Below are positions 1-18,372 of a DNA stretch of 64,000 nucleotides, piece after piece. The stretch lies in contig CAJTBO010000003.1 in assembly GCA_910573755.1 (NCBI GenBank), forward strand, positions 1 through 64,000, read 5' to 3'. Under the pieces are notes generated by a model. That model was not told the origin of the DNA, ran no database searches, and was given only the letters and a program-made list of their open reading frames with translations. A program made the position numbers and the translations under genes. How positions within the stretch are numbered: position 1 is the stretch's first letter; every line of letters begins with the position of its first letter. This DNA is from Lachnospiraceae bacterium. GTDB lineage: Bacteria > Bacillota > Clostridia > Lachnospirales > Lachnospiraceae.

Positions 1-90
1 TTACTGTGAAACATAATCTTCCGGGTAGCCAAAAAAGCGCAGACTGCCCCTATCAAGCTTAAAAGAAGTTTTTGACCCTGTCTGGAAGAC

Positions 91-1523: not shown

Positions 1524-3101
1524 TCAATAACCTATCGCTTGCACAGTTTCATTTATGGTGGTGCCAAATGTGGGGCATGAGGGTTTAGAAACTGTTGCTT
1601 GCATTTTCACTGGCAATGCAAGTTCTGGTTTTGCTGAAAAAGTAATTCCAATATAAACTGATCCATCTCGTGCAGTTGCAAATGAAATATCTACAGTTCC
1701 AGATAGCGGGAACCCAAATGCAGCTCCATTTATACCACCGCCAAAAGATGCTGCATATCCTTCCAGATCCCAAATTTCTTCTGCATTGTATACACTTACA
1801 CTCCCACCATGAAATCCTATAGCTGGGAATCCTCCGCCTACTGCATCATAATTGAGTAATCCATAATTACCTTTACCATCTATTACAAACTGTGAACCTG
1901 ATGCAGCTTTAATTCCAAATGACAATGCCACCTCATATCCAAATGCCAATACCCATAATCCATTTGGATCAAAGTAGTTGATCGGATCGCCATAACAGTA
2001 CTGATACCAGTTCCCGCCATCCTTCACCGGATCCATCGCAAGCCAGGTGCGGTTATTCGCATCGTAGAACCTCGCCTCTGCAAAATAGATATCCAGCGTC
2101 GTGTCATAGATATGGCCGGTAAACGTAGCAAAGACATAGTTCCCGTGGTCATTATTCAACAGCTTGTTCGGGCTTTCCGGCATCCCCCACGCGTCGTAGG
2201 TCAGCTCCGCAAAGCTCTGGCCGTTTGCTTTCGTGTAATACCGGGTATTGCCCATCACATCTTCATGGACATACAGGGTTCTCTCCCAGTTCCCCTTGTC
2301 TGTGAACTGTTCGATCCTCTCGCTCCCCGCATATACATGCTTCTGTTCATACTCTAACTGCCCGTTTCCTTCGGCAAATACCATCAGGTCATCGTTCTCA
2401 AAGCTGGTATAATCGATCACGTAATCGCGGGCATATACTTTCCCGGCGTGGGTGGTATGGGTGTTATTTACGCGCAGACCTAATCCGTTGTAGGTGTAGG
2501 CGGATTTATCGCCCTTCCAGTTGGTGCCCTCCGCCATGCGGTTTGTCTCGTCGTACAGGTAGGAGCGGCTTGCCTTTTTCCCGATCTCCGCTGTACGGTT
2601 GCCCCGCTTGTCATAAGTATAATTATAAGATTCGTTGCCCTCCTTTTTCTTTGTCAGCTGGTTTAATTCGTTATACTGATAGTCTACCACTTTGTTTTTG
2701 GTCTTTTCAAGTACCAGATTTCCCAGCGTGTCGTAGGTATAAGTGGTTGTCGTCCCGGCGATATTACTGCTGGTCATACGGTTTAAATTGTCATAGCCGT
2801 ACTTATGGGTTCCTTTATTCGCCTTGTTTGCCTTTTTATCCGTGCTGTCCTCGGTGCCCGGGTTGTCCGGTTTTTCGGGCTTGTTCGGATTATCCGGCTT
2901 TTCTATTTTTTCCCCGCGGTTTAATCCCGGAGGCGTATTGCCGCCCGGATTGACGATAGTTCCGTCCTCATCCTCGGTCTGACCCGGAGGGATCTGCCCG
3001 TTGTCGGCTTCGGCAGCATCCACAGTCTTCATGATATTTCCATTTCCGTCTAGTATATATTCCGTGGTACACAGGAGAATATGCTTGACTAAAGTATACA
3101 T
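1524..3101 (-). CDS. Truncated Rhs module 5 with Gly-rich C-terminal tip, no immunity gene
   Basis: 525 residues. Residues from about 14 (YILDGNGNIMKTVDAAE) match an internal part of the full-length Rhs protein, then jump directly to its later linker (GQIPPGQTEDEDGTIVNPGG). This is an internal deletion of about 1 kb relative to the intact gene. YD repeats and the Rhs core follow, ending in the FDPNGLW cleavage-type motif. Unlike the other modules it lacks the hydrophobic pre-toxin segment. The last about 140 residues are a Gly/Ala/Phe-rich sequence that I do not recognise. There is no signal peptide and no good ribosome binding site at the ATG. No immunity-like gene follows before the IS110 element. 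It is probably a silent or decaying cassette rather than an expressed protein. Confidence 0.7.
   Translation of the reverse strand: MYTLVKHILLCTTEYILDGNGNIMKTVDAAEADNGQIPPGQTEDEDGTIVNPGGNTPPGLNRGEKIEKPDNPNKPEKPDNPGTEDSTDKKANKANKGTHKYGYDNLNRMTSSNIAGTTTTYTYDTLGNLVLEKTKNKVVDYQYNELNQLTKKKEGNESYNYTYDKRGNRTAEIGKKASRSYLYDETNRMAEGTNWKGDKSAYTYNGLGLRVNNTHTTHAGKVYARDYVIDYTSFENDDLMVFAEGNGQLEYEQKHVYAGSERIEQFTDKGNWERTLYVHEDVMGNTRYYTKANGQSFAELTYDAWGMPESPNKLLNNDHGNYVFATFTGHIYDTTLDIYFAEARFYDANNRTWLAMDPVKDGGNWYQYCYGDPINYFDPNGLWVLAFGYEVALSFGIKAASGSQFVIDGKGNYGLLNYDAVGGGFPAIGFHGGSVSVYNAEEIWDLEGYAASFGGGINGAAFGFPLSGTVDISFATARDGSVYIGITFSAKPELALPVKMQATVSKPSCPTFGTTINETVQAIGY
1978..3045 (-). repeat. Rhs core repeat, copy 5
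   Basis: Near-identical at DNA level to the Rhs core of the full-length gene (about 11130-12170): Pro/Gly linker, last YD repeats and core. The similarity ends at the DPNG motif, earlier than in the other copies, so the pre-toxin segment is absent. The left junction also contains a fused piece of the full-length gene from around 13215-13270. Confidence 0.8.
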
Positions 3102-3133
3102 TCACTTTTATTTCTATAACTTCATTATGAAGT

Positions 3134-3177
3134 TGCTAAAAAGAAGGAACAAATAAATCTGCTCCTTCTTTTTAGCA
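3134..3177 (-). terminator. Terminator after rhs module 4
   Basis: A perfect 15-bp stem, TGCTAAAAAGAAGGA (3134-3148) with TCCTTCTTTTTAGCA (3163-3177), around a 14-nt loop. It sits just after the 138-residue immunity candidate and before the next module, so it would stop read-through on the minus strand. Confidence 0.75.
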
Positions 3178-3236
3178 TCAAAAATAATTAACAATTTATA
3201 TTATGTTTCGTCAGGAAATTTTCTGCAAATCTCCAC

Positions 3237-3653
3237 TTAAATAGTTGCAAAATACAAATCATCCAAGCTAAAACTACTTGTATCAACTGCTCCTTCTGAT
3301 GTATGCCAATACAATTCAGGTATTGTCTGTTTTAAATTTGTCAAATCAATAAACCAATTTTCTGAATAATAATCATCAACAAAAACAATTTCCAACATAT
3401 CTATGACATTTTTTATTTTACTGAATTTATATGTTTTTCTAACAAAAACTATTCCTATCTTAGCACTTGCCATGCATACAATGCCATCTTTTTTATTAGA
3501 AAATCTTGCCCATTCTTCTCCTGCACCATCATCCCAATCTAATTCCAAATTACTATCAGCTAATTGAATTTTTATAAGTAATTCTTTAAATTCATTATTT
3601 AAAAATATCTTCTTATCTCTTGCTCTTTTCAGTATTTCCATCATATTTTCCAT
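3237..3653 (-). CDS. Candidate immunity protein of rhs module 4
   Basis: 138 residues starting MENMMEILKRARDKK. I chose this ATG because AGAGG lies upstream; the frame is open to 3725, but that would overlap the toxin gene. The protein is small, cytosolic, acidic and rich in aromatic residues (LDWDDGAGEEW, DYYSENWFIDL), with no signal peptide. The start is 19 nt after the stop of the truncated rhs gene, the standard place for a cognate immunity gene. I do not recognise the family. The immunity role is inferred from position and size. Its A+T richness contrasts with the GC-richer rhs core, as is usual for horizontally shuffled toxin-immunity tips. Confidence 0.65.
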   Translation of the reverse strand: MENMMEILKRARDKKIFLNNEFKELLIKIQLADSNLELDWDDGAGEEWARFSNKKDGIVCMASAKIGIVFVRKTYKFSKIKNVIDMLEIVFVDDYYSENWFIDLTNLKQTIPELYWHTSEGAVDTSSFSLDDLYFATI

Positions 3654-3672
3654 TTTCTCTATACCTCTAACT

Positions 3673-5256
3673 TTATGGATTTCCGGGACATCCATGAACA
3701 TACCCTGTTTTGGTTCTATATACATTAATATAACTAGTCAATTCACCTTTTCCTGTTACTCCTACATATCCATTTGTAACTGGAACTTTTGCCTTATTCT
3801 CAAAATCAATTGAATTACCTGTACTTGCCTCCCATAAATTATTTGCATCTGCATAAGCCGATGCATCTAATACGGCCTTGTTTGCATCCACATCATACAA
3901 AAACTGACTTTTATTCGGATTTTTTCCGTCCACATGGATCAACATATCTTTTTGATTTAATGTATATGTTCCATTAGTTAGTTCCCCTTTTTTATTTGTT
4001 GTAATTTCGGGTGCTTCAAATGCATTAGGCGTGCCACTCCCAAAAGTACCACCTTTCCCATAACCGGCTTTTTCCGCCATATTGATCTCACTCTCCATAT
4101 TAAAACTACGGAAAGTGGCTGTTCCGGCACTTGCTATCAGGGTTGCCGCTGTTTCCAGCGTGTAGTACAAGTCTTCATTTCCGGCAAAATATTTATCTCG
4201 GACATAATTGACAGACGCCTTATCGCTTCCCACTGTGCCGTAACTCACATCCTGCAATGCCTCTGCCGCATCCGATAGCCCAAAGGTCAATGCTGCTAAT
4301 CCCGCCGCAAACGTTCCAACTGTAACTAAAGCAGTACCCGCTGTTACGGTTCCTGCAAGCAGTCCCATCACTGCCGGAAGTGCCGCTCCGCCGGTCGCAA
4401 CTACAGCCGCAATGCCGATCGCCAATACCACCGCTGCACTCGCGCCTTTCAGGACACCCGTCCCGACACGGTTCCAGTCGATATTATCCACAAACCCGGA
4501 TACTTTCCCTTTCAGGTCCCGGATGCCTGACTGCATCTGCTCCGCCAGTTCATTCACATCCACGCATCCGCCAAAGGGGGAGAATCCCGCCAGCCCTGTC
4601 GGATCATAGAAGGTCGTCGGATTGCTGTAGCAGTACTGATACCAGTTCCCGCCATCCTTCACCGGATCTATCGCAAGCCAGGTGCGGTTGTTCGCATCGT
4701 AGAACCTCGCCTCAGCAAAGTAAATATCCAGTGTCGTATCGTAGATATGCCCGGTAAAGGTTGCAAAGACATAGTTCCCATGGTCGTTATTCAACAGCTT
4801 GTTCGGACTCTCCGGCATCCCCCATGCGTCGTAGGTCAGCTCCGCAAAGCTCTGTCCGTTTGCCTTCGTGTAATACCGGGTATTGCCCATCACATCCTCA
4901 TGGACATACAGCGTCCTCTCCCAGTTCCCTTTATCCGTGAACTGTTCGATCCTCTCGCTTCCCGCATATACATGCTTCTGTTCATACTCTAACTGCCCGT
5001 TTCCTTCGGCGAATACCATCAGGTCATCGTTCTCAAAGCTGGTATAATCGATCACGTAATCGCGGGCGTATACTTTCCCGGCGTGAGTGGTATGGGTGTT
5101 ATTAACGCGTAAGCCTAATCCGTTGTAAGTGTAGGCGGATTTGTCACCCTTCCAGTTAGTGCCTTCCGCCATGCGGTTTGTCTCGTCATACAGGTAGGAA
5201 CGGCTTGCCTTCTCTTCTACCTCTGCTGTACGGTTACCACACTTATCATATGGCAA
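3673..5256 (-). CDS. Truncated Rhs module 4 with unrecognised C-terminal toxin tip
   Basis: 527 residues. Similarity to the full-length Rhs protein starts almost at the first residue (YDKCGNRTAEVEEKASRSYLYDE) and runs through the YD repeats, the Rhs core with FYDPTGLAG (putative self-cleavage region) and the hydrophobic Ala/Gly-rich pre-toxin segment, to the FNMESEIN boundary. The remaining about 135 residues are unique. They include NQKDMLIHVDGKNPNKSQF, YDVDANKAVLDASAYAD and a C-terminal YINVYRTKTGYVHGCPGNP with His and Cys that could be catalytic. I do not recognise this tip family. There is no signal peptide and no visible promoter. It is followed by its own small immunity candidate and a terminator. 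It is probably a silent donor cassette. Confidence 0.75.
   Translation of the reverse strand: MPYDKCGNRTAEVEEKASRSYLYDETNRMAEGTNWKGDKSAYTYNGLGLRVNNTHTTHAGKVYARDYVIDYTSFENDDLMVFAEGNGQLEYEQKHVYAGSERIEQFTDKGNWERTLYVHEDVMGNTRYYTKANGQSFAELTYDAWGMPESPNKLLNNDHGNYVFATFTGHIYDTTLDIYFAEARFYDANNRTWLAIDPVKDGGNWYQYCYSNPTTFYDPTGLAGFSPFGGCVDVNELAEQMQSGIRDLKGKVSGFVDNIDWNRVGTGVLKGASAAVVLAIGIAAVVATGGAALPAVMGLLAGTVTAGTALVTVGTFAAGLAALTFGLSDAAEALQDVSYGTVGSDKASVNYVRDKYFAGNEDLYYTLETAATLIASAGTATFRSFNMESEINMAEKAGYGKGGTFGSGTPNAFEAPEITTNKKGELTNGTYTLNQKDMLIHVDGKNPNKSQFLYDVDANKAVLDASAYADANNLWEASTGNSIDFENKAKVPVTNGYVGVTGKGELTSYINVYRTKTGYVHGCPGNP
4081..5252 (-). repeat. Rhs core plus pre-toxin repeat, copy 4
   Basis: Near-identical to 10620-11790 of the full-length rhs gene. 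It starts abruptly at the YDK-GNR codons near 5252 and ends at the MESEI codons near 4081, beyond which the toxin tips are unrelated. Confidence 0.85.
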
Positions 5257-5271
5257 AAGACTTATTGTTTC

Positions 5272-5311
5272 GTATGATTCCGCTTTTCAAACTCGAAAAG
5301 CAGAATCATAC
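5272..5311. terminator. Hairpin between rhs modules 3 and 4
   Basis: GTATGATTCCGCTTTT (5272-5287) pairs with AAAAGCAGAATCATAC (5296-5311), a 16-bp stem with one mismatch and an 8-nt loop. It separates the Imm11-like gene (ends 5462) from module 4. No clear U-tract follows on the minus strand, so it may be a weak terminator or only a boundary hairpin. Confidence 0.5.
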
Positions 5312-5461
5312 TCAATAGGCTTAAATATATAAAATCAAGACTACCTACTTTTTGTACCACCCGCACGCGCACTATACAGATTGCAACATGTGTGTTTAGC
5401 TATTTCTCCGTTCAAAATGGAAAGCAATTTGGTATTTCCAAAAATATGACAATTATTATCA

Positions 5462-6064
5462 CTATTTTTGTTCATAAAAAGTAAACCCTATCCACTGATT
5501 ATCTTCTGTAAGTTTCTTTATTTGTTCTGAAACATATATTGCTGATACACTTTTATTACATCGGAATATGTCATAATCCGAGCAAATACTCTTATCTAAA
5601 AAGGTTTCCATAGGCATAAAAGTATAAAAATCGTATTTCTCATTATACTTATATTTACTTTTTTCCATATCGAATGCATTAATAAAATTTACAATATACA
5701 TTAGAACATAATTATTGTTAATTTTCTGCGTAACTACATCAATCAGCTTAATTGGAAAGTATTGTAATCCTCTTATTCCTTTTTTAACAAACTCTTCCAT
5801 AACTCTAATATGAATAATGGGCCACCTTTTCACATTCAACAGATAATCACTTTCCAGATTGGAGGCTTCTGAACTATAGTAAAACTCAACATTTGGCCAA
5901 TGATTAATAGAATGTGGAGATAATATAATATTATCAAAAAAACCTTTTTTCACATTCTCATACTCAATTTCATCTATGTTTGTAGCCTCAGCATAGATTG
6001 TGTTGGTTCCGCTTTTTATGGATTCGTCAACTCTATCCATATCAAATGATAATTTATAAAACAT
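5462..6064 (-). CDS. Imm11/DUF1629-like immunity protein of rhs module 3
   Basis: 200 residues, cytosolic. The C-terminal half matches the Imm11 (DUF1629) pattern as I remember it: FPIKLIDV, then VNFINAFDMEKS, then YDIFRCNKSVSAIYVSEQIKKL and a closing WIGFTFYEQ. Imm11-type proteins are known immunity partners of polymorphic toxins. Its ATG lies 4 nt after the stop of the HNH-type toxin module, so the two are a pair. The gene is A+T-rich compared with the rhs core. The family call is good; that it neutralises this particular tip is inferred from adjacency. Confidence 0.75.
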   Translation of the reverse strand: MFYKLSFDMDRVDESIKSGTNTIYAEATNIDEIEYENVKKGFFDNIILSPHSINHWPNVEFYYSSEASNLESDYLLNVKRWPIIHIRVMEEFVKKGIRGLQYFPIKLIDVVTQKINNNYVLMYIVNFINAFDMEKSKYKYNEKYDFYTFMPMETFLDKSICSDYDIFRCNKSVSAIYVSEQIKKLTEDNQWIGFTFYEQK

Positions 6065-6068
6065 TCAC

Positions 6069-7523
6069 TTATTCCTTTAATCCTTTCCAATAACTTGAGT
6101 ATAGCATATTGGGGTTAGCCCGGATAACACTTTTTACATCACTTTCATATAACTCTAAGAAAATCTCCTTGTTTCCGTTTGCTATATTATCAATATTTCT
6201 TACTTCATCTAAAACAAACTCATGATATTCATTAGGATGTCTGCCTTGATGCGGTAACAACTCTTTATTCCAATCATCATCTAAATCTAATCCATATTTA
6301 TCTGTGATATCTTTAAGTGCTTGTGTATATGTCTTACTCTTATTTGTTGAATAATGATGCATTTGTTTAGGCTTAGTTGTATTATTGTTCCAATAAGAAC
6401 TGCTTTCCCCGAAGCCCGTCATCTTCGACGCATTAATCTCACTCTCCATGTTAAAATTGAGGAAAGTAGCTGTTCCGGTACTCGCTATCAAAGTTGATGC
6501 CATCTCCAGCCCATAGTACAGGTCTTCCTTCCCTGTAAACAGCGTATCACTGAGAGGGTTAAAAGATGCCTTACTGCTTCCTTCTAAGCCGTAACTCAGA
6601 TCCTGCAATGCTTCCAGCACATCCGTAAGCCCGAAAGAAACGGATGCTATTCCCGCTGCCAACGTTCCAACCGTGACCATAGCGGTACCCGCTGATACTG
6701 TTCCTGCAAGCAGCCCCGCCACTGCAGGCAGCGCCGCTCCTCCGGTTGCAACGACAGCCGCCACACCGATCACCAGTATCACCGCCGCACCTGCGCCTTT
6801 CAGGATGCCCGTCCCGACACGGTTCCAGTCAACATTATCCACAAATTCGGATATTTTTCCCTTCATATCCCGGAAGCCTGAGTGTAATTTCTCCGCCAGC
6901 TTATTCATGTCCACGCATCCGCCAAAGGGGGAGAATCCTGCCAGCCCTGTCGGATCATAGTAAGTCGTCGGATTGCTGTAGCAGTACTGATACCAGTTCC
7001 CGCCATCCTTCACCGGATCCATCGCCAGCCAGGTACGGCTATTCGCATCGTAGAACCTTGCCTCCGCAAAATAAATATCAAGGGTAGTATCGTATATATG
7101 GCCGGTGAACGTAGCAAAGACATAGTTCCCATGGTCGTTATTCAGCAGCTTGTTCGGGCTCTCCGGCATCCCCCATGCGTCGTAAGTCAGCTCCGCAAAG
7201 CTCTGTCCGTTCGCTTTCGTGTAATACCGGGTATTGCCCATCACATCCTCATGGACATACAGCGTCCTCTCCCAGTTCCCTTTATCCGTGAACTGTTCGA
7301 TCCTCTCGCTTCCCGCATATACATGCTTCTGTTCATACTCTAACTGCCCGTTTCCTTCGGCGAATACCATCAGGTCATCGTTCTCAAAGCTGGTATAATC
7401 GATCACGTAATCGCGGGCGTATACTTTCCCGGCGTGGGTGGTATGGGTGTTGTTAACGCGTAAGCCTAATCCGTTGTAGGTGTAGGCGGATTTATCGCCT
7501 TTCCAGTTAGTACCTTCCACCAT
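6069..7523 (-). CDS. Truncated Rhs module 3 with AHH/HNH-type nuclease tip
   Basis: 484 residues from the first in-frame ATG. Rhs similarity continues in frame upstream to about 7758 (TSSNIAGTTTTYTYD) without a start codon, so the 5' part is missing. The order is YD repeats, Rhs core with YYDPTGLAG, hydrophobic pre-toxin segment, then FNMESEINASK. The tip has HH at 389-390, a DWN at 417-419, LPHQGRH around 423-429 and EYH at 432-434. This His/Asn spacing fits the AHH branch of the HNH/Endonuclease VII superfamily and predicts DNase activity. An Imm11-like gene follows 4 nt later. There is no signal peptide or promoter, so it is probably a silent cassette. Confidence 0.8.
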   Translation of the reverse strand: MVEGTNWKGDKSAYTYNGLGLRVNNTHTTHAGKVYARDYVIDYTSFENDDLMVFAEGNGQLEYEQKHVYAGSERIEQFTDKGNWERTLYVHEDVMGNTRYYTKANGQSFAELTYDAWGMPESPNKLLNNDHGNYVFATFTGHIYDTTLDIYFAEARFYDANSRTWLAMDPVKDGGNWYQYCYSNPTTYYDPTGLAGFSPFGGCVDMNKLAEKLHSGFRDMKGKISEFVDNVDWNRVGTGILKGAGAAVILVIGVAAVVATGGAALPAVAGLLAGTVSAGTAMVTVGTLAAGIASVSFGLTDVLEALQDLSYGLEGSSKASFNPLSDTLFTGKEDLYYGLEMASTLIASTGTATFLNFNMESEINASKMTGFGESSSYWNNNTTKPKQMHHYSTNKSKTYTQALKDITDKYGLDLDDDWNKELLPHQGRHPNEYHEFVLDEVRNIDNIANGNKEIFLELYESDVKSVIRANPNMLYSSYWKGLKE

Positions 7524-7758
7524 GCGGTTCGTCTCGTCATACAGGTAGGAACGGCTTGCTTTCTTCCCGGTCTCCGCTGTACGGTTGCCCCGCTTATCAT
7601 AAGTATAATTATAAGATTCGTTGCCCTCCTTTTTCTTTGTCAGCTGGTTTAATTCGTTATACTGATAGTCTACTACTTTATTCTTGGTCTTTTCAAGTAC
7701 CAGATTTCCCAGTGTATCATAGGTATAGGTGGTTGTCGTCCCGGCGATATTGCTGCTA
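6430..7758 (-). repeat. Rhs core plus pre-toxin repeat, copy 3
   Basis: Near-identical to 10620-11958 of the full-length gene. The left end (7758) falls inside the codons for SSNIAG, just beside the hairpin at 7783-7833. The right end is at the MESEI codons near 6430. Confidence 0.85.
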
Positions 7759-7782
7759 GTTAATCTACCTAAATAAATTAAA

Positions 7783-7833
7783 ATAGAATTAGGGGAATCT
7801 GTTTTTCTTCATACAGAGTCACCCTAATTCTAT
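7783..7833 (-). terminator. Terminator after rhs module 2
   Basis: A perfect 12-bp stem, ATAGAATTAGGG (7783-7794) with CCCTAATTCTAT (7822-7833), extended inward by GAATCTGT/ACAGAGTC with one mismatch. On the minus strand a TTTTAATTT tract follows. It lies directly after the stop of the module 2 immunity gene (7845). Confidence 0.7.
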
Positions 7834-7844
7834 ACAAATACACA

Positions 7845-8555
7845 CTATTTCCCTTTACTTTTTAAAAGATTTTTAATTATCTCATCACTCATAATTTTTA
7901 CAGCATTTTCAGGATAACAAACATCATTATAAGGAATAGCATAAACCTCTTTCCCATTTAATAAAAATTTTAGAATATACTTATCATCTTCTTTATTAAT
8001 CTGATTATAAATCCATGTACTTTTCCTTATAAATCGTTCAACAATTTTATTTCTTGGTATAGACCAATATGAATTAAAATATTCAATAATTAATGTATCA
8101 AATTCTGCCGGAAATTCCGGTTTATAAGTTTCCTTTGCCGGCGTTTCAAAATAATATTGATCATATTTTTTAAACATTATGCCTTCTTTTACAGATTCCT
8201 CACAAATTGCCTGTAATAAATATCCATCATAATATTCGATATGAGGATTATTATTCCTTTTTAACGTATTCGAGACCTTCCACGGATCAATTCCACACCA
8301 TCTGCTTCTATATCCAAAATCCCAATCAATAAACTTTTTTACATTAAAAGCCATACAGCCTTTACCATGCAATCTATAGCTGATTCCTTCCGCTTCAAAT
8401 TCCATTTTTTTACAACATGACCTATATGCAAAAAAATCATACTTATTTTTTAGATTAAGGTTTTCTGAATTATTAATGCTTTTTACCAGAATACGGCATA
8501 CATCTTCCACATCTTTAATATATTCCTTTAAAACAATTTGCAATTCTTCTTCCAT
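7845..8555 (-). CDS. Candidate immunity protein of the ParB-tip rhs module 2
   Basis: 236 residues, cytosolic. I chose the ATG at 8555, preceded by AGAGGATAGG; a GTG lies one codon upstream. The central part reads YRLHGKGCMAF, then FIDWDFGYRSRWCGIDPW, which resembles DUF6896-type proteins that occur beside polymorphic toxins (family call from memory, moderate). The rest is charged and aromatic with no membrane segment. The start is 26 nt after the ParB-like toxin stop, so it is the likely immunity partner. It is A+T-rich relative to the rhs core. Confidence 0.65.
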   Translation of the reverse strand: MEEELQIVLKEYIKDVEDVCRILVKSINNSENLNLKNKYDFFAYRSCCKKMEFEAEGISYRLHGKGCMAFNVKKFIDWDFGYRSRWCGIDPWKVSNTLKRNNNPHIEYYDGYLLQAICEESVKEGIMFKKYDQYYFETPAKETYKPEFPAEFDTLIIEYFNSYWSIPRNKIVERFIRKSTWIYNQINKEDDKYILKFLLNGKEVYAIPYNDVCYPENAVKIMSDEIIKNLLKSKGK

Positions 8556-8581
8556 CACCTATCCTCTTATGATTTTTAATA

Positions 8582-9451
8582 CTAATTACTTATTTTAGCT
8601 CCATCTAACAATTCCTGTAATGATCTGCAGTAAGTTCCATCAGGAAGAGTTTTGCCCAACTGAGAACTATGTAAGTATTTAATCGGTACTCTATCATAAC
8701 CCAATTGACGAAATGCTTCTAGTCTATGATGCCCATCAACTACTAATGCTTGCCCATCATGCACTCTTATTTTAATTGGCGGAACTGAATTGGGACCACT
8801 TTGTGCAATTGTCTCCTTTATTGACGAAACATTCTCTACATAAGTATAAGATTGTGTCTTTTGCAATTTATTAATATCATAACTATTACCATTTATTTGG
8901 GCAGATGGATTTGTTGTTGCACCCTTAGCAAAAATACTATTTTTCTCATATCTCGCAATTTCCGACGCATTAATCTCACTCTCCATATTAAAACTACGGA
9001 AAGTTGCTGTTCCGGCACTTGCTATCAGGGTAGTCAGCATCTCCATCTCATAGTACAGGTCTACATTTCCGGTAAACATGGTATCGCGGAGAGGGTTAAA
9101 GGATGCTTTGCTGCTTCCCCACATGCCGTAGCGCAGATCCTGATATGCCTCCATCATATCCGCGGCCCCAAAGGCAAAAGCTGCGCTCCCCGCCACAAAG
9201 GTTCCCAGTGTGACTATAGCGGTGCCTGCCGATAAAGTTCCTGCCAGCAGCCCCGCCAATGCCGACAGTGCCGCTCCGCCGGTTACAACCACCGCCGTTA
9301 TGCCGATCGCCAGCACCACTGCGGCGCTCGCTGCTTTCAGGGCGCCAACTCCGATACGACCCCAGTCGATATTATCCGCAAATTCGGCCAGTTTCCCCTT
9401 CCAGTCCCGGAAGCTTGACTGCATCTGCTCCGCCAGCTTATTCATGTCCAC
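8582..9451 (-). CDS. Truncated Rhs module 2 with ParB-like nuclease tip
   Basis: 289 residues from the first ATG. Rhs similarity extends in frame to about 9523 (CFSNPTTFYDPTGLAGFSPF) and is then cut by an in-frame TAA, so only the last core residues remain. The hydrophobic pre-toxin segment (about 35-120) leads to FNMESEINASE. The tip contains PIKIRVHDGQALVVDGHHRL (225-244) followed by EAFRQLGYDRVPI, a clear ParB N-terminal/sulfiredoxin-like fold signature with the DGHHR motif at 239-243. ParB-type tips of polymorphic toxins are regarded as nucleases or NTP-dependent enzymes. A candidate immunity gene follows. This is the shortest rhs remnant of the array and is almost certainly not expressed alone. 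Confidence 0.8.
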   Translation of the reverse strand: MDMNKLAEQMQSSFRDWKGKLAEFADNIDWGRIGVGALKAASAAVVLAIGITAVVVTGGAALSALAGLLAGTLSAGTAIVTLGTFVAGSAAFAFGAADMMEAYQDLRYGMWGSSKASFNPLRDTMFTGNVDLYYEMEMLTTLIASAGTATFRSFNMESEINASEIARYEKNSIFAKGATTNPSAQINGNSYDINKLQKTQSYTYVENVSSIKETIAQSGPNSVPPIKIRVHDGQALVVDGHHRLEAFRQLGYDRVPIKYLHSSQLGKTLPDGTYCRSLQELLDGAKISN

Positions 9452-9523
9452 GCATCCGCTGAAAGGTGAAAATCCCGCCAGTCCGGTCGGATCATAGAAG
9501 GTCGTCGGATTGCTGAAACAGTT
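8968..9523 (-). repeat. Rhs core end plus pre-toxin repeat, copy 2
   Basis: Near-identical to 10620-11176 of the full-length gene. It begins mid-core at the TGTTTCAGC codons (CFS). Upstream sequence is unrelated and contains a stop, which marks a recombination junction at about 9523. Confidence 0.85.
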
Positions 9524-9794
9524 TGTAGGCTTTTAATCACTACCGTAAACCTTTCTTTTTAGTTTACAATATCGTTCGCATCTTCGTCAGAATTTTCTTT
9601 ATCAAAATACAGCTACTCTAACGCCTTACCGCTATTGTAGCTGTACTTTGTCAGGTACGTTTCTTTCTCAATTTTGAAAAAATACTATCAACTGCATGCT
9701 TTTCTCTATCATTGTTTTATCCTTTTCGCATCCAGTTTTTTTCCAAAATTTATCAATCTCTTTAATAGATACTGTTAGAGTTTTTACTATCCAA
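9524..9794 (-). other. Intermodule spacer with hairpin and possible coding remnant
   Basis: This spacer follows the immunity gene of the full-length rhs. Right after that stop, one minus-strand frame (about 9803 to 9675) encodes a start-less protein-like stretch with IDKFWKKTGCEKDKTMIEKS, which may be a decayed gene end. A hairpin with TACAGCTAC (9608-9616) and GTAGCTGTA (9637-9645), followed on the minus strand by TTTTG, is a candidate terminator. A small GTAAAC/GTTTAC repeat lies near 9545-9565. I see no intact gene. Confidence 0.4.
9608..9645 (-). terminator. Candidate terminator after the expressed rhs/immunity pair
   Basis: A 9-bp perfect stem with a 20-nt loop, followed by TTTT on the minus strand. 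It lies between the main immunity gene and truncated module 2, so the downstream cassettes would not be read from the rhs promoter. Confidence 0.5.
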
Positions 9795-10202: not shown

Positions 10203-10203
10203 T

Positions 10204-13200
10204 TTAGTTACCTCCTATATTTAATGGTGGATATTCACCATACTTATATTTATAATAATTATTCATATCAATTTGCCAATAATGAATATCTGCTTTACTT
10301 CCTTGCTCTAATATAACCATCTTGGCATTATTATCATTCAAATAATTTTGTGAATATCTGTTTTCAGGATTTAAAGATTCTCCAAATTTAAGAATTTCCT
10401 TCGTGTTTTTATCAACTAATACATATCCATAATTTGTTCTGGGGTCGGACAGCGAATTTCCATGACTTCCTGTTGACACCTTAGCAAGAGAATCAATTCC
10501 CACCTCTGAATTTAACGCAAACTGCCCATTAGGTCTATGCCATCTTCCATTTGCATCTTGATAATATCCAGAAGGTATACCACCCTCAAAAGATCCACCA
10601 TTCCCCGCCATCTTCGACGCTTCAATCTCACTCTCCATATTAAAACTGCGGAAAGTAGCTGTTCCGGCACTTGCTATCAGGGTCGTCAGCATCTCCAGTC
10701 CATAGTACAGGTCTTCATTTCCGGTAAACATGGTATCGCGGATAGGGTTAAAGGATGCCCTGCTGCTTCCCACTGTCCCATAGCCCACATCCTGCGCCGC
10801 CTCCAGTATATCCGCAAACCCAAAGGCAACTGCTGCACTTCCGGCTGCAAACGTCCCGACTGTGACTATGGCAGTACCCGCCGATACGGTTCCTGCAAAC
10901 AGCCCCAGCACTGCCGGCAGTGCCGTTCCTCCGGTTGCAACCACAGCCGCTGCGCCGATTGCCAACACTGCCAATGCACTCCCGGTTTTCAGAAGCCCCA
11001 TTCCGACGCGGTTCCAGTCAACATTATCCACGAATCCGGATACTTTCCCTTTCAGGTCCCGGAAGCCTGACTGCATCTGCTCCGCCAGCTTATTCATGTC
11101 CACGCATCCGCTGAAAGGTGAAAATCCCGCCAGTCCGGTCGGATCATAGAAGGTCGTCGGATTGCTGAAACAGTACTGATACCAGTTCCCACCGTCCTTC
11201 ACCGGGTCCACCGCAAGCCAGGTACGGTTATTCGCATCGTAGAACCTCGCCTCCGCGAAATAAATATCCAGTGTCGTATCGTAGATATGGCCGGTAAAGG
11301 TAGCAAAGACATAGTTCCCGTGGTCGTTATTCAACAGCTTGTTCGGGCTTTCCGGCATCCCCCACGCGTCGTAGGTCAGCTCCGCAAAGCTCTGTCCGTT
11401 CGCCTTCGTGTAATACCGGGTATTGCCCATCACATCTTCGTGGACATACAGCGTCCTCTCCCAGTTCCCCTTATCCGTGAACTGTTCGATCCTCTCGCTC
11501 CCCGCATACACATGCTTCTGCTCATACTCTAACTGCCCGTTCCCTTCGGCGAATACCATCAGGTCATCGTTCTCAAAGCTGGTATAATCGATCACGTAAT
11601 CGCGGGCGTATACTTTCCCGGCGTGGGTGGTATGGGTATTATTGACGCGTAAGCCTAATCCGTTGTAGGTGTAGGCGGATTTATCACCCTTCCAGTTGGT
11701 GCCTTCCACCATGCGGTTCGTCTCGTCGTACACGTAAGAGCGGCTTGCCTTTTTCCCGGTCTCCGCTGTACGGTTACCCCGCTTATCATAGGTATAATTA
11801 TAAGATTCGTTGCCCTCCTTTTTCTTTGTCAGCTGGTTTAATTCGTTATACTGATAGTCTACCACTTTGTTTTTGGTCTTTTCAAGTACCAGATTTCCCA
11901 GCGTGTCGTAGATATAGGTGGTTGTCGTCCCGGCGATATTGCTGCTGGTCATGCGGTTTAAGCTGTCGTAACCGTATTTATGGGTTCCTTTATTCGCCTT
12001 GTTTGCCTTCTTATCCGTGCTGTCCTCGGTGCCCGGGTTATCCGGTTTTACAGGTTTGTTCGGGTTATCCGGCTTTTCTCCCTTCTCCCCGCGGTTTAAC
12101 CCCGGAGGCGTGTTGCCGCCCGGATTGACGATAGTTCCGTCCTCCTCCTCGGTCTGTCCCGGAGGCACCTGTCCGTTGCCGTCCCCGTTTCCTTCGATGG
12201 AAGCGTCATCTTTCACCGTATTTAAGAGCTCCATATTGGTCTCCTGTGCGGTGTCCGACTGGTTCTTTAATACGATGCCTGCCGCAGTATCCGCTGTCGG
12301 ATCGGGCAGTTCCGGTCTGTTTACAACGGAAACGATGGTGCTCAATTTCTCCGTATCCACGGAAGGGCTCTCCACTGCAGGCGCTTCCGCGGAGGCAGTA
12401 CCAGTGCTGTTTTTCCCATTGCCCTTGTTGTCGGAATTTCCGGAATTCCCGTTTCCACTGCTGCTTCCGCTCTGGCCATGGTTATACTGCATCTCACTTA
12501 AGCGGTTTCCTTCCGCATCCCAGCTGTAAGTGGTCTTGAACAGCTTCTTCCCGCCGATGTTGTACTCATCCATCTCGATGATCCGGTCGCACGCATCATA
12601 GAAATAATACGCCGTCTCATAGTTCGGATATTCCTTGAAGGTCTTGTTGCCGTTGCCGTCGTAGGCGAACTTTGTGATGCCGCCGTCGAAGTCCTTCATC
12701 TCCACGATCTGGTTTTCTTTATCGTAATAATAATCCACCTGAGTTCCGTCGGGATAGCCCTGCACTGTCTTGTTTCCTACATTATCCCAGCCGTAGGCGG
12801 TCTTCCTGCCGTTATGGTCCGTCACCTCCGTCACGCGGTTTAAGAGGTCCCTGCCGATGGATGTCTTTCCGTTCCAGTCCTCCATCTCGATCAGTTCCCC
12901 TGTGCCGTTATAGAGATAGGAGACAGATTTTGCATCATTATAGTTAATGTTTTTCACCAGATTGACGGGACTGTATTCATACTCCGTCACATAGCCGTCC
13001 TCATCGGTCTTCCTGATCAGGTTGCCGTTGCCGTCGTAGACGAAAGCTTTCCCGTCTCCTTTGGCGTTGACTTCCGTTTTGATAAGCCCCCTGTGGTCGT
13101 AAGTGTATAGCGTCTCCTGGTATTCATCTACCTTGTGGGCAGTATCTATACGGTGCATCTTTATCTTCGTCAGGCGGTCCATGGAATCATAAGTGAACTC

Positions 13201-16200
13201 GCTGCCTGTCCCGGCGGCGTCCACTGTCTTCACGATATTTCCGTTGCCGTCCAGTGTATATTTCGTAGTGTTCCCGTTCCGGTCCGTCACCGCCGTGATC
13301 CTGCTGTCCTTGTCGTAGGTAAAGGATTTTTTATTGCCCTTCGGATCGGTCTCACTGGTGACGCGGTTTAAGGCGTCATAGGTGTAAGTATAGGTCTCCC
13401 CGTTCCGGTTCGTGACGCTGGTGCGGTTGTCGTTGGCATCGTAAGTGTAGGTCTCCGTGAAGCCGCGGCCGTCCTTATATTTTTTCAGGTTTCCTTTGAA
13501 ATCGTACTCGTATTCCCGTCTTACGCCGTTCTCATCCGTCACGGCAGTGACGCGGTCCATGGGATCGTACTCAAAATATTTATAGTGCCCGAGGGCGTCT
13601 TTGACGCCGGTCGTCCTTCCTTTGGCGTCATACTCGTATTCCGTCACGGCGCCGTCCTCATTCACCGCTTTGACAATGCGCCCCAGAGCGTCGTAGGTGA
13701 GCGAAATTTCTCCGCCCTCCTCGTTGACGGAAGATACCATGCGGTTTAAGGCGTCATACTCCGCGCTGCGGCTGTTCCCTCTGGGATCGGTCACTTTCAC
13801 AAGGTTCCCGTTCTCATCGTAGGCGTACAGGGTGGTATATCCCTCCCCGTCCGTGTAGGAGATGAGCTGGTCATTCAGATCGTAAACATACTGCTCCACC
13901 CCGCCGTCCGGGTTTTCCACAGATACCACGTTTCCGTTGGCGTCGTAAGTGTATCCTGTCCGGTTCCCGTTGGCGTCGGTGGCGGATACCGGGCGGTTGT
14001 CCTTATCATAGCCGTAGCTCAGGCTGTGCCCCTCCGCGTCCACGATCCGGATCAGGTTGTCGTTCTTATCGTAGGTGTAGGTGATGACGCCCTCCATCGC
14101 GTCCGTCACGCTCTCCACCATGCCGGTCGGCGTATAGGTGTAGGCGGTAACGCCGCCCAGGGGATCCGTCTCTGTCAGGAGCAGGTTGTTTTTGTCATAC
14201 GTATAGCTGTATGTTTTTCCCCGCTCATTGGTCATACTAAGCACGCTGCCGTTTTTATTGTAGACATACTTCACATAGGTATTGTCTTCATTGTAGCGCC
14301 TTATGACGCGCCCCATCTTATCGTATACGTAGCGCACCTTATGGGTGTTTCCCTCTCCCGCCAGCTCGTTCGCCGCCGTGGTAGTCTGCCCGGCCGCGTC
14401 ATATACGGTGGAGGTTTTTCCGCCCAGCGCATTGGTGACGGATACCACCTGCCCCAGGGCGTCGTATTCATATACCGTGGTGCCGCCCAGCGCGTCCGTG
14501 ATCTTCGTCAGGCGGTTGTTTTTATCGTAGGTGTAGCTTGTGGTATTGCCCCTGCGGTCGGTGACGCCGGTGCAGTTGCCGTTTTCATCGTAGGTATAGC
14601 TCTCCCCATGCCCCAGCGCATCCGTCAGCACGGTCCGGTTATCCGTCTCATCGTAAGTGCCGGTGTAGGTTCCTCCCGTGGGGCGGGTAACCTTTGTCAG
14701 GTTGCCGTTCTCATCGTAGGCGTAGGAGGTGACGCCGCCCTCCGCATCCGTCACGGAAGAAAGGCGGTTTAATTTATCGTATGTATAAACCGTCTTATTC
14801 TTTCTGCCGTCCGTCACGGAAGTGACATGGTTGTTCCCGTCATAGGCGTAGGCTGTCACGCTGCCTTTCTGGTTCGTCACCGCCGCCAGCTGCCCGCCTG
14901 CGGTGTAGGTGTAGGCGATAACCCCTCCTTCCGGATCGGTGACGGAAGCAAGGCGGTTCATTCTATCGTAGGTATAAACGGTCGCGTTGCCGCGCTCGTC
15001 GGTGACGCAGAGCACGTTGCCATTTGCATCGTAAGTGTAGCTGCGCTCTGTCCCGTCCGGGTTTACCTGCTTTGTGATCCTGCCGAGGGCGTCATACTCA
15101 TAGCCTGTTGTCTGCCCGAGGCCGTCCGACGCACTGAGGGCGTTGCCGTCCGCGTCATAGGAGATGCTTCCCTCCGCTCCGTTGGCGTCTGTTACACTGA
15201 CGAGCTGCCCGAGGGCATCATAGGTGAAAACGGTGGTGCCGCCCTCCGGATCGACGCTCTTTGTCAGCTTATTTTCCGCGTCGTAAGTATAAGTTGTCGT
15301 ATTTCCCCTCGCATCCGTCACGGAGGTCAGATTGCCGTTTGCGTCATAGCCGTAGGAGACAGCGTTTCCTTTCGCGTCCGTCTCCTTTACAATGCGCCCC
15401 ATGGCGTCGCGCTCGTAGGATGTCGTCATCCCCCGCTCATTTGTCTCACTGACGGAAAGGTCCATGGAATCGTATGCCGTGGAGAATGTATTCCCGTAAG
15501 GATCTGTCTCCACCGTCAGGTTGCCGTTCGCATCGTAGTTGAAAGAGGTGGTGTTGCCGTTGCCGTCTGTCCGGCTGGTCATCCGCCCCATCGCGTCATA
15601 GGTATAAGAAATCTTATGCCCGTCCGCATCGGTCTCCGATATCCGGTTTCCCCGTCCGTCGTAGGTGTAGACAGTCTCCGCGCCGGCCGCATCGGTCATG
15701 CTGATCAGGTCATTGACCGCATTGTAAGCATACAGGGTTTTATTCCCCTGCCAGTCGGAAACGGAGGTTTCGTAGCCGTTGCCGTTGTATTCATATTCCT
15801 TCACATTCCCCAGCGGATCTGTCTCGCTCATCAGTTTCCCGGCATCCGAATACTGATAGGTGTAGGTATGCCCGAGCGGTGTCGTCCGGCTGGTCATGCA
15901 GCCCGATCCGTCATAGGTGAAAGTGCTGGTATTCCCCAGCGGATCCGTCATGGAGATGACATTTCCCTGGCTGTCGCAGACATAGGTGGTAGTATTTCCC
16001 AGCATGTCCACACTGGACGCCAGATGCCCCTCATCGTCATACGTATAGGTGGTCACGCCGCCGTTTTCATCCGTGGCACTTGTCAGGTTGCCGTCCCCGT
16101 CATAGGTTTTACTTACAGCAGTCCCGTCCTTCTGCACCGTCCGGGTTTTCTGCCCCCAGTTTCCGTAGGTATATTGTTCCGTCGTTCCGTTGGGATAAGT

Positions 16201-18372
16201 CGTCTCGGACGGATAGGTGAATGCTCCTTCGTAAGCGTAGGTGGTTGTATTGCCGTTCCGGTCCGTCTCGGAGACCAGCCTGTTGTCCTCATCGTATTCG
16301 TAGGTTTCCGTGCCCGCGTCATCCGTATAGGAGATAATGCGGAATCTGTCGTCATACACCACTGTCTTCGTGCTGCCGTCCTCTTCCCGGTATATGTTGG
16401 TGCGGCTGTCCGGATCATACTCGACGGTCATCTTTCCCCGGTCCGGCATCCACTGCTCCGTCACATGTCCCGCGTCATCATAGGTATTTTGGAGAATCTT
16501 ATTTCCGTTCAGGTCTGCTACTTCCGACAGACAGTTATTTTCGTCATAGCTGTAAACAAAGGAATCTCCATCCGGATTCTGCACTTTGGCAAGGCTGCTG
16601 CCGTATTCCAGAGAGAGGGTTCGTCCCGCACTGTCTTTGACAGTACTGATATGGTCCCCGCTGTAAGAAAAATGGAAACTCCCCGAAGTATTGCTGACCG
16701 TGGAGAGCCGTCCGCCCTCATAGGTGAGGGTAATCACATTCCCTCCGGCTTCCGCGATCCTGACCGCGTATCCGTCGCCGTCAAAATATACTTCCTGTCC
16801 GTTGTCATGGTACATCCGGTATCCTTCTCCCCAGTCCTCCAGATGCCATGCGTTCCCCTTATTCGTCGTATAAGTATTATCGTATTCCAGGTAATAGTAG
16901 ATATGCCCGCCGCCCGGCAGGTAAACGTCTACGTTCCCTTCAAACATCTCCGCCCGGTAGGAATAATTGTGGCTCCACCCGTTTCCCAGTCCGGAATCAT
17001 CGATTTCCCGCATACCGGATAAATACGTCCGCGTAAAGGTAAGCGGGTGCTTTCCGTCCAGTGTCAGGTCCGTGTAAGTCCAGTTTAAGGAACCGGAGAG
17101 CAGGTCCACCGGATCCCCGCCCGTACAGAACTTGAGGCTCGGATAGCCGGAGGAAAATCCCGGAAAGTATACCATATCCCGGTAAATCGCCCCCAAAATA
17201 TCCTCTTCCGTCAGTGCTCCGTCCGCGCCGCTCCCGCCGATCACAAAAGGCAGGGTAATCGGCAACAGGGACTGCGCTTTCGGAATGATCTGGATCGTGT
17301 AATTACCCGGCTGCAGATAGGCCGGTGTATCCCCGAGGTTCTGGATGACTTCCCCCTTCCACACGATAAAGTTATGTATCAGGTCCGGGCGCTGTTCCGC
17401 AGCCGCCCTCGCGCCGAACGTGCCGGTGCGGAAATCGCGGCGGATATAAAAATCTTCCGGGATATCCTGCATCTCTTCCGCCATTTCGATTTCCGGAATG
17501 TCCTGCCCGCTTACATCCTTTACGGTTTCGTCTGTCCCATCCGCATCCTGTCCGCTTTCCTCCTGCCCTTCGTGGGATTCTCTGTTGTTTCCGGATACAT
17601 CCCCGTCCGGAAGTTCCGCCGCCTTTGCCGTCAGCGTAAAGAAAGAAGAAAGAGCGGAGAGCAGCGTCTTTTTCGGAGCCGCATCACCTGCCGCCGCCAT
17701 GTCATTTCCCGATACGGTTTCCCCGGCTGGTCCGCTTTCACTGTCTTCGGACTCCGGCTGGTCCTGTTCAAGTTCCCCGTCCTCCTCCGGTACGGTATCC
17801 TGCCCGCCGTCTTCTCCCGGCATATCTTCCTCTCCGGATTCCGCTGTGTCATGGAACGCATAGTATTCCGCCAACGTGCTCCACGGAAGAGTCTCGCCTG
17901 TCAATCCCAGCCCGGTAAAATCATTCGCCCACGTATAGGGCATCCCATAGACAAACAGTTTCAGTTCCTGCTTGATCTGCGCCATGCTTTTCCCCAGAGG
18001 CGTGTAGCCTGCATCGGGAGTTCCCGTTATATGTTCCCCATAGTATTTTCCATACAGGTAGCCAAGATCACTGCCGTTTTCGTCCAGTACTTTCACATCA
18101 TAGTTGACATTATACGGCAGGGCGAACTGCAGATATACCATCTCCCCGAAAGACATCGGGTACGATACTTTTTCCGCCCCGGTGGAATTGTTGCGGTAAG
18201 ACAGTCCCTTCCCGTCCTGCAAAATGGATTCCATGCGGGTATAATCATACGCCGCAAGCCCCAGCGTCTCTAAAGGGCTTTCCGCCTTTGCCTCCATCAC
18301 CGGAACGGAAGTTACTGCCAAAACGGCAGACAGCAGTCCCGCCAGTAATCTTTTTAAACTTCGTTTCTTCAT
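10204..18372 (-). CDS. Full-length secreted Rhs/WapA-type polymorphic toxin with GIY-YIG/URI-like tip
   Basis: 2722 residues. A Sec signal peptide (KKRSLKRLLAGLLSAVLAV... AKA, about 1-30) is followed by an N-terminal domain and an acidic Ser/Glu/Asp linker (about 175-310). A DUF6531-type start (GGDPVDLLSGSLNWTYTDL) lies near 420, and tens of YD repeats run to about 1960. A Ser/Gly/Asn linker with PPGG motifs leads to a second YD block and the Rhs core, ending in FYDPTGLAG near 2412. A hydrophobic Ala/Gly-rich pre-toxin region follows to FNMESEI (about 2580). The tip has GYVLVDKNTKEILKFGES from 2649 and ENRYS near 2671, which fits a GIY-YIG/URI endonuclease fold. The YD shell should encapsulate the tip and present it at the surface for contact-dependent killing. 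This is the only module with an intact 5' end and signal peptide. It has a good -35 box upstream and an immunity gene 1 nt downstream. Confidence 0.92.
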   Translation of the reverse strand: MKKRSLKRLLAGLLSAVLAVTSVPVMEAKAESPLETLGLAAYDYTRMESILQDGKGLSYRNNSTGAEKVSYPMSFGEMVYLQFALPYNVNYDVKVLDENGSDLGYLYGKYYGEHITGTPDAGYTPLGKSMAQIKQELKLFVYGMPYTWANDFTGLGLTGETLPWSTLAEYYAFHDTAESGEEDMPGEDGGQDTVPEEDGELEQDQPESEDSESGPAGETVSGNDMAAAGDAAPKKTLLSALSSFFTLTAKAAELPDGDVSGNNRESHEGQEESGQDADGTDETVKDVSGQDIPEIEMAEEMQDIPEDFYIRRDFRTGTFGARAAAEQRPDLIHNFIVWKGEVIQNLGDTPAYLQPGNYTIQIIPKAQSLLPITLPFVIGGSGADGALTEEDILGAIYRDMVYFPGFSSGYPSLKFCTGGDPVDLLSGSLNWTYTDLTLDGKHPLTFTRTYLSGMREIDDSGLGNGWSHNYSYRAEMFEGNVDVYLPGGGHIYYYLEYDNTYTTNKGNAWHLEDWGEGYRMYHDNGQEVYFDGDGYAVRIAEAGGNVITLTYEGGRLSTVSNTSGSFHFSYSGDHISTVKDSAGRTLSLEYGSSLAKVQNPDGDSFVYSYDENNCLSEVADLNGNKILQNTYDDAGHVTEQWMPDRGKMTVEYDPDSRTNIYREEDGSTKTVVYDDRFRIISYTDDAGTETYEYDEDNRLVSETDRNGNTTTYAYEGAFTYPSETTYPNGTTEQYTYGNWGQKTRTVQKDGTAVSKTYDGDGNLTSATDENGGVTTYTYDDEGHLASSVDMLGNTTTYVCDSQGNVISMTDPLGNTSTFTYDGSGCMTSRTTPLGHTYTYQYSDAGKLMSETDPLGNVKEYEYNGNGYETSVSDWQGNKTLYAYNAVNDLISMTDAAGAETVYTYDGRGNRISETDADGHKISYTYDAMGRMTSRTDGNGNTTSFNYDANGNLTVETDPYGNTFSTAYDSMDLSVSETNERGMTTSYERDAMGRIVKETDAKGNAVSYGYDANGNLTSVTDARGNTTTYTYDAENKLTKSVDPEGGTTVFTYDALGQLVSVTDANGAEGSISYDADGNALSASDGLGQTTGYEYDALGRITKQVNPDGTERSYTYDANGNVLCVTDERGNATVYTYDRMNRLASVTDPEGGVIAYTYTAGGQLAAVTNQKGSVTAYAYDGNNHVTSVTDGRKNKTVYTYDKLNRLSSVTDAEGGVTSYAYDENGNLTKVTRPTGGTYTGTYDETDNRTVLTDALGHGESYTYDENGNCTGVTDRRGNTTSYTYDKNNRLTKITDALGGTTVYEYDALGQVVSVTNALGGKTSTVYDAAGQTTTAANELAGEGNTHKVRYVYDKMGRVIRRYNEDNTYVKYVYNKNGSVLSMTNERGKTYSYTYDKNNLLLTETDPLGGVTAYTYTPTGMVESVTDAMEGVITYTYDKNDNLIRIVDAEGHSLSYGYDKDNRPVSATDANGNRTGYTYDANGNVVSVENPDGGVEQYVYDLNDQLISYTDGEGYTTLYAYDENGNLVKVTDPRGNSRSAEYDALNRMVSSVNEEGGEISLTYDALGRIVKAVNEDGAVTEYEYDAKGRTTGVKDALGHYKYFEYDPMDRVTAVTDENGVRREYEYDFKGNLKKYKDGRGFTETYTYDANDNRTSVTNRNGETYTYTYDALNRVTSETDPKGNKKSFTYDKDSRITAVTDRNGNTTKYTLDGNGNIVKTVDAAGTGSEFTYDSMDRLTKIKMHRIDTAHKVDEYQETLYTYDHRGLIKTEVNAKGDGKAFVYDGNGNLIRKTDEDGYVTEYEYSPVNLVKNINYNDAKSVSYLYNGTGELIEMEDWNGKTSIGRDLLNRVTEVTDHNGRKTAYGWDNVGNKTVQGYPDGTQVDYYYDKENQIVEMKDFDGGITKFAYDGNGNKTFKEYPNYETAYYFYDACDRIIEMDEYNIGGKKLFKTTYSWDAEGNRLSEMQYNHGQSGSSSGNGNSGNSDNKGNGKNSTGTASAEAPAVESPSVDTEKLSTIVSVVNRPELPDPTADTAAGIVLKNQSDTAQETNMELLNTVKDDASIEGNGDGNGQVPPGQTEEEDGTIVNPGGNTPPGLNRGEKGEKPDNPNKPVKPDNPGTEDSTDKKANKANKGTHKYGYDSLNRMTSSNIAGTTTTYIYDTLGNLVLEKTKNKVVDYQYNELNQLTKKKEGNESYNYTYDKRGNRTAETGKKASRSYVYDETNRMVEGTNWKGDKSAYTYNGLGLRVNNTHTTHAGKVYARDYVIDYTSFENDDLMVFAEGNGQLEYEQKHVYAGSERIEQFTDKGNWERTLYVHEDVMGNTRYYTKANGQSFAELTYDAWGMPESPNKLLNNDHGNYVFATFTGHIYDTTLDIYFAEARFYDANNRTWLAVDPVKDGGNWYQYCFSNPTTFYDPTGLAGFSPFSGCVDMNKLAEQMQSGFRDLKGKVSGFVDNVDWNRVGMGLLKTGSALAVLAIGAAAVVATGGTALPAVLGLFAGTVSAGTAIVTVGTFAAGSAAVAFGFADILEAAQDVGYGTVGSSRASFNPIRDTMFTGNEDLYYGLEMLTTLIASAGTATFRSFNMESEIEASKMAGNGGSFEGGIPSGYYQDANGRWHRPNGQFALNSEVGIDSLAKVSTGSHGNSLSDPRTNYGYVLVDKNTKEILKFGESLNPENRYSQNYLNDNNAKMVILEQGSKADIHYWQIDMNNYYKYKYGEYPPLNIGGN
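10620..12170 (-). repeat. Rhs core plus pre-toxin reference copy (copy 1)
   Basis: This part of the intact rhs gene is shared at DNA level with four truncated copies at 1978-3045, 4081-5252, 6430-7758 and 8968-9523. The shared segment ends sharply at the MESEI codons, after which each tip is different. These are obvious substrates for homologous recombination. Confidence 0.85.

Follow-up and report, generated by a model that had tools for sequence, protein, structure and literature searches.

A Rhs/WapA-type toxin gene followed by 5'-truncated tip cassettes in a Lachnospiraceae bacterium, and cassette exchange in its relatives

The DNA analysed (64,000 nucleotides, hereafter the window) opens contig C3 in the 87-contig, 4.88 Mb draft genome of a Lachnospiraceae bacterium. 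It contains one complete toxin gene followed by a row of 5'-truncated spare tips, most of them with a likely antidote gene. The locus is probably a polymorphic-toxin locus of the Rhs/WapA kind and the toxin is probably antibacterial. The full-length gene (10204..18372, minus strand) encodes 2722 amino acids; its core ends at about nt 7224 and is followed by a pretoxin segment (PT-A) to about nt 7770 and then by the tip. 37 RHS-repeat stretches, DUF6531 and a teneurin YD-shell match were found in it using Pfam, and the NCBIfam profile Rhs_assc_core scored above its cut-off in this gene and in three of the modules described below (M3, M4 and M5). The start codon has a Shine–Dalgarno (SD) match of 6 nt. 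The signal peptide reported by the first-pass annotation was recognized again, by eye only, as a signal-peptide-like N-terminus. The N-terminal part of the gene occurs twice in the genome, in the window and on contig C6; a version in genome G008 is 92–93% identical, on a contig that ends inside the gene, before the tip.

No family was found for the main tip in the profile search. Y and KxG motifs were seen by eye, as in the Tox-URI2 list of Zhang et al. (2012), and by this comparison the tip appears Tox-URI2-like. The immunity candidate of the main tip (9795..10202, minus strand) matched Imm44 at 27.3 bits (cut-off 25) and carries the SD sequence AGGAGGT; Imm44 is given as a partner of Tox-URI1, Tox-URI2 and Tox-ParBL1 in the family descriptions of Zhang et al. 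(2012; PMC3482391). The AlphaFold model of the main tip (pLDDT 40.6) was too poor to use.

Four modules (M2–M5), all on the minus strand, lie downstream of the main gene; their lack of a 5' end beside one intact rhs gene, as claimed in the first-pass annotation, was confirmed by DNA alignment to the main gene. M2 (8582..9522) consists of the last ~26 nt of the core, PT-A and a tip with sub-threshold ParB/SerK-like matches, window positions 9522-8954 corresponding to main-gene nt 7199-7767 (83% identity). M3 (6069..7760) has a core fragment, PT-A and an AHH nuclease tip (7760-6415 corresponding to nt 6424-7769, 88%). M4 (3673..5256) has a core fragment, PT-A and a tip without a family above the cut-off and with one sub-threshold family match (5250-4085 corresponding to nt 6583-7748, 87%). 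In M5 (1524..3101) a class-C tip directly follows the core fragment, and the alignment (3006-1966 to nt 6192-7232, 93%) covers core only, with no pretoxin; from ~1584 the end of the tip is replaced by the flank of an IS110 element. The module–main matches (569–1349 nt at 83–93% identity) are far beyond chance, and the aligned spans are equal in length on both sides, so the module frames are in register with the main gene. A 5'-truncated core joined to a different tip is thus found downstream of an intact gene, the core being reduced to ~26 nt in M2; the earlier statement that the modules repeat the main core therefore holds for M3, M4 and M5 and barely for M2. Its further points, a pretoxin segment shared by three modules (PT-A in M2, M3 and M4) and mutually unrelated tips (no matches among the five in the window), were borne out.

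Immunity candidates follow M2 (DUF6896, 7845..8558), M3 (Imm11, 5462..6064) and M4 (no named family, 3237..3725), all on the minus strand and the first two recognized by profile match; none was present for M5 in the window, in agreement with the three of four proposed earlier. The M4 immunity gene has no SD at 3725 and its true start is therefore probably further in. A variable C-terminal tip followed by an immunity candidate was accordingly seen for the main gene, M2, M3 and M4, with cognate pairing predicted.

A hairpin lies after each of the four immunity genes in the window (folding z −4.6 to −8.5; minus strand). The hairpin after the Imm44 gene (9603..9650; z −4.86 for 9570-9680) is followed in the fold by a AUUUUGAU-like tail, the U-rich tail being modest. 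The hairpin after the M2 immunity gene (7783..7833; z −4.58 for 7765-7850) has a clear U-rich tail, that after the M3 immunity gene (5272..5311; z −5.14 for 5250-5340) has no clear U-tract directly after the stem and the long hairpin after the M4 immunity gene (3134..3177; z −8.46 for 3120-3200) has its U-run inside the stem, with no U-rich tail behind it. Downstream of M5, where an immunity gene is lacking, folding is only weak (z −1.91). A terminator pattern scan restricted to loops of 3–8 gave 18 hits versus 15.8 (s.d. 3.8) in shuffles and hence no excess; the regions were folded instead because the scan allows only such loops.

M5 is interrupted by an IS110-family transposase gene (91..1326, minus strand; profile match). 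On contig C1, a stretch matching the end of the M5 tip (window 1584-1674, 94.5%) continues into one that corresponds to the start of contig C46 (89%) and encodes a membrane protein, and window 1-120 is identical to the end of C46. Because C1 bridges the M5 tip to C46 and the end of C46 coincides with the start of the window, the element most likely lies between the M5 tip and its partner gene, which would be on C46 beyond the contig break. C46, which carries four orphans plus one core-less unit, probably continues the window array; the overlap alone is no proof of continuity, since C4 and the far end of C6 carry the same IS110. The copies (window 91-1326; G000 C4, 176510-177742; C6, 181072-181329) are near-identical, two being full-length at 99–100% and one partial at a contig end, and from their presence at several places in the genome the element may be recently active. 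Among the part of the ORFs searched, the IS110 transposase was the only recombination gene recognized near the array.

17 tip-bearing units were found on five contigs of the draft genome (five in the window, three on C6, five on C46, three on C51 and one on C1), two of them full-length genes and 15 orphans; C19 holds a remnant without a tip. Decayed orphans include C46c, the tip of which is short, and one core-less unit each on C46 and C51. PT-A follows the core in the main gene, M2–M4, C46a, C51a and C1a, and a second pretoxin block, PT-B, follows it in C46b–d and in three modules of a relative (MGBC000058). Class-C tips stand directly after the core in M5, C6o1 and C51b and are mutually 48–60% alike, and the tips of C6main and C6o2, which come after a short PT-A start, are 32–36% alike. 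C51a has a Tox-REase-3 tip with Imm7, the partner of C46d matched Tdi1_C, and sub-threshold matches were obtained to EndoU (C1a) and to an ADP-ribosyltransferase-type family (C46). No tip was found twice in the genome (the closest pair is 60% alike over the aligned part), and no tip of a full-length gene was found again on an orphan.

Among the Pfam families searched, none scored above the cut-off for the class-C tips (M5, C6 and C51) or their membrane-protein partners, and the AlphaFold models of these tips (pLDDT 39.6) were too poor to use. On C6, C46 and C1, class-C tips or what remains of them are followed by membrane proteins of 200–220 amino acids (L009 15042-15710 and 19421-19747; L010 321-941; L012 5286-5972; rhs orientation), which might confer immunity if the tip acts on membranes. 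Part of the C51 Imm7 gene together with downstream DNA (L011 3710-4148) is repeated on C1 (L012 6057-6495; both in rhs orientation) at 95.7% identity without a toxin; the C1 copy is a solitary immunity remnant.

Recombination within the genome was assessed by a permutation test on polymorphic sites with global p values; the test takes no account of rate variation along the sequence. In PT-A, four of 21 pairs had a global p below 0.05 (C46a–main 0.0003, M2–main 0.0003, C1a–C46a 0.024 and C1a–main 0.041). Three of 21 pairs were significant in the long core (p = 0.0015, 0.006 and 0.017) and none of 91 fell below 0.05 in the short core (best 0.089). PT-B is 98.6–99.5% identical among C46b–d, with cores 91–96% identical and different tips. 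On C51, two modules have a common 5' junction, including 267 nt without a match to the main gene, a pattern that copying of the junction by insertion or tandem duplication would produce. Among the 13 3' regions compared, segments that give cassettes a common right-hand arm occur only in the main gene, C6main and C51x, together with a 29-nt match between the main gene and C51a. Recombination is supported by the identical tracts linking the main gene with other modules and by the near-identical PT-B blocks that lead into different tips.

A scan of named genomes gave six loci in Clostridia bacterium (MGBC assemblies) and Bacterium 1XD21-13, all of which we take to be of mouse gut origin. Locus L042 has a core 95.6% identical and a downstream flank 98% identical to those of L037, with unrelated tips; with L041 it shares the tip and immunity gene (97.4%), with 91.5% identity in the core and 90.9% downstream. 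At 102 informative core sites of L042, 72 of the 88 up to position 10423 side with L037 and 13 of the 14 from 10477 with L041, and downstream 74 of 81 sites side with L037 again. The site pattern places the left exchange ~75–130 nt before the core end and the right one just after the immunity gene; L042 is a three-way mosaic in which the tip-immunity cassette was exchanged through the end of the core. The L042 gene lacks its 5' part, the gene of L037 extends past the contig end and no N-terminal match was obtained in either genome, so that the exchange is not placed on a complete gene. A comparison of strains had been put forward as the check on tip swapping by recombination. Exchange through core homology is seen in tracts between the main gene and other modules and in the cassette replaced at one locus in relatives, on a 5'-truncated gene; of transfer from an orphan to the main gene in this strain, also part of the proposal, no instance was found.

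In a relative, L039 and L040-4 have PT-B 99.1% identical and different tips, and L038-3 and L039 are ~87% identical in core, PT-B, tip and immunity gene alike. In a tree of 25 core fragments the 14 from the genome were split from the 11 of relatives (100/100); five of 22 inner branches were well supported, with little resolved within the two groups, and PT-B is present in both. The truncated rhs gene of MGBC000266 (L042 8153-8900) begins just after a hairpin with a T-run (by eye), as in the window array, and for this reason may be the last orphan of an array.

The core itself is not widespread: at E ≤ 1e-40 it was found in one of 397 genomes of the family, its own, and a search of nine genomes of the genus gave strong matches only in its own genome. 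In 14 others of the 397, with two candidates scored per genome, the listed DNA matches to the array (E ≤ 1e-10) all fall within tip or immunity DNA and not in the core. Where the frame could be followed by eye, the matched tips sit on other carriers, namely other YD genes (L061 and L066), a gene with a Hint-like stretch (L060) and several non-YD genes. A viral reservoir was rejected (four stretches fitted a pattern and none encoded a relative), as were phage records (one record, with a 118-nt match). Plasmid matches were obtained in 32 records, all Campylobacter, the best 20 of the 32 covering ~200–220 nt of the AHH tip at 69–71%. The AHH tip of M3 is ~70% identical (DNA, ~220 nt) to AHH genes on Campylobacter plasmids such as NZ_CP044176.1, a possible trace of inter-phylum transfer.

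The explanation that we favour with fair confidence is a Rhs/WapA locus with displaced or imported tip-immunity cassettes that are exchanged stochastically by homologous recombination from a shared pool, and apparently not by a programme. By analogy with the family, the complete protein would be exported by the general secretory route and its C-terminal tip delivered into neighbouring bacteria, the adjacent immunity gene protecting kin. The downstream modules would be displaced or imported cassettes in which retained core and/or pretoxin DNA could serve as a homology arm; homologous recombination through this arm, completed by another exchange beyond the immunity gene or proceeding by way of a circular intermediate, would replace or displace tips, the partners being core or pretoxin copies within the genome or incoming DNA. 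Orphans would be silent and could later be re-attached to the main gene. Any modules lying between the two sites of a single crossover in cis would be lost, so that displacement, duplication or transfer would have to refill the bank to keep it from shrinking. The exchange looks stochastic, with a pool common to other bacteria as its source; of the switching put forward in the first-pass annotation the recombination can be retained, and nothing in support of a programme was found in the part of the ORFs searched.

A less likely reading is that the system is genome-wide and two-tiered. Modules on several contigs have the core in common and, beyond it, PT-A or PT-B, two pretoxin blocks at the least, which would make pretoxin plus tip, or the tip alone, exchangeable; the core and the pretoxin block would form the two tiers, the 15 orphan cassettes might serve the two full-length genes, and cassettes might pass through attached, selected phases and silent, relaxed ones with refilling from relatives in the same habitat.

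Selection was examined in the 12 orphan cores long enough for a test against the main gene (M2, with too little core, was left out). They gave dS of 0.22–0.78, dN of 0.008–0.037 and dN/dS of 0.02–0.08. With amino acids kept despite high dS, most of the divergence would have arisen in working genes; at this dS from the main gene, recent duplication within the genome is unlikely as the source of all orphans. Changes private to the orphan cores comprise 37 synonymous and 40 non-synonymous, a non-synonymous share far higher than in the shared divergence and below the 80% site-count neutral expectation (52%, p = 8e-8, transition bias uncorrected). In a simple reading, the orphan cores would have spent a long time in working genes before selection on them was recently relaxed. 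High synonymous against low amino-acid divergence of orphan cores offers a simple gauge of how long a cassette has been silent that is applicable to other arrays.

One alternative is one-way displacement, in which tips arriving by horizontal transfer push old ones downstream and the orphans are a decaying record that is never reused. We regard this as possible although on balance disfavoured. Displacement by incoming tips has been proposed (Jackson, 2009; PMC2935791), some units are truncated, the raised non-synonymous share fits decay, and recent arrival followed by decay is compatible with the data; the share nevertheless stays below neutral expectation, and no in-frame stop was found in the aligned codons of any of the 12 orphan cores.

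That the orphans are kept for their immunity genes, protecting against neighbours with the same tips while the tip remnants are passengers, seems to us rather unlikely. M2, M3 and M4 do each have an intact immunity candidate behind them, in some cases with a ribosome-binding site of its own, and a defensive role of orphan tips and immunity genes is discussed for bee-gut bacteria, in which orphan tips are reported (PMC8125069). The tips, however, are mostly intact open frames, and in a relative, where two orphan modules carry one tip-immunity pair, constraint is similar for tip and immunity gene (dN/dS 0.17 and 0.21). The corresponding values are 0.42–0.49 for class-C tips and 0.80, from few changes, for the membrane-protein partner in C46 versus C1. 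Expression of the orphans inside the cell as toxin–antitoxin modules, as described for an orphan rhs of Salmonella (PMC7043789), would accord with their open frames and with an excess of promoter-like sites (46 versus 30.7, s.d. 6.4, in shuffles); it is very unlikely given that, in the four orphan frames, an SD match of at least 4 nt precedes 12 of 99 in-frame starts (starts inside the main gene, 20 of 133), that none of at least 6 nt occurs at in-frame starts of the orphan frames or inside the main gene, and that hairpins separate the modules. An assembly artefact, with repeats collapsed or mis-joined among 87 contigs and rhs units or IS110 near the ends of C3, C46, C51, C1 and C6, is hardly credible because the 14 core copies are up to 15% apart (mean identity 91%) and a 634-kb contig of MGBC000058 carries orphans behind a full-length gene.

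The locus has precedents: its layout is known as C-terminal displacement in Enterobacteria, where an intact gene is followed by dissociated tips (Jackson, 2009; PMC2935791), and from WapA of Streptococcus suis, and the array here has a larger bank and a nested pretoxin layer. The enterobacterial arrays, as portrayed in that account, likewise have core fragments of variable length, recombination through the core and decoupled core and tip histories. They differ in that here no type VI context is implied, the host belongs to the Bacillota, the secreted protein is larger and WapA-like, a pretoxin layer is present and core copies are 9% apart on average, those of Enterobacteria being identical within a locus (PMC2935791). 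The S. suis report (PMC12704120), the closest account of a Gram-positive orphan array among open-licence PubMed Central papers, describes a full-length gene with downstream truncated copies bearing other toxin/immunity pairs; its publication reduces the Gram-positive novelty suggested earlier. In the strains described there, the arrays are smaller (two truncated copies per locus, against 15 orphans and two full-length genes here).

In Salmonella Typhimurium LT2 an orphan without initiation or export signals similarly lies beside an immunity gene downstream of the main gene, and Southern blots and qPCR of evolved lines revealed a main/orphan fusion (PMC3967940); here no fusion was observed. Truncated Rhs genes have also been suggested as a source of tip diversity for LrhA of Listeria, proteins that are linked to a type VII system, in place of the signal-peptide-like N-terminus seen here (PMC10327511). 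The AHH tip, Imm44, the Tox-REase-3/Imm7 pair of C51 and tips on unrelated carriers all recur among the cassettes of Zhang et al. (2012; PMC3482391), from the descriptions of which the class-C tips and membrane-protein partners differ in having no Pfam family above the cut-off among those searched.

A further group of Bacillota is added to the known carriers of Rhs tip arrays; recombination is evident here from the sequence, and in relatives a cassette exchange has been mapped. Should there be strain or time-series data for these bacteria, they would allow a direct test of whether orphan tips are re-attached in natural communities. Apart from the array, contig C2 (G000, 253433-312015) carries a second, distant group of YD-repeat genes, ~34–50% identical to the main gene in parts, some of which have very long open frames.
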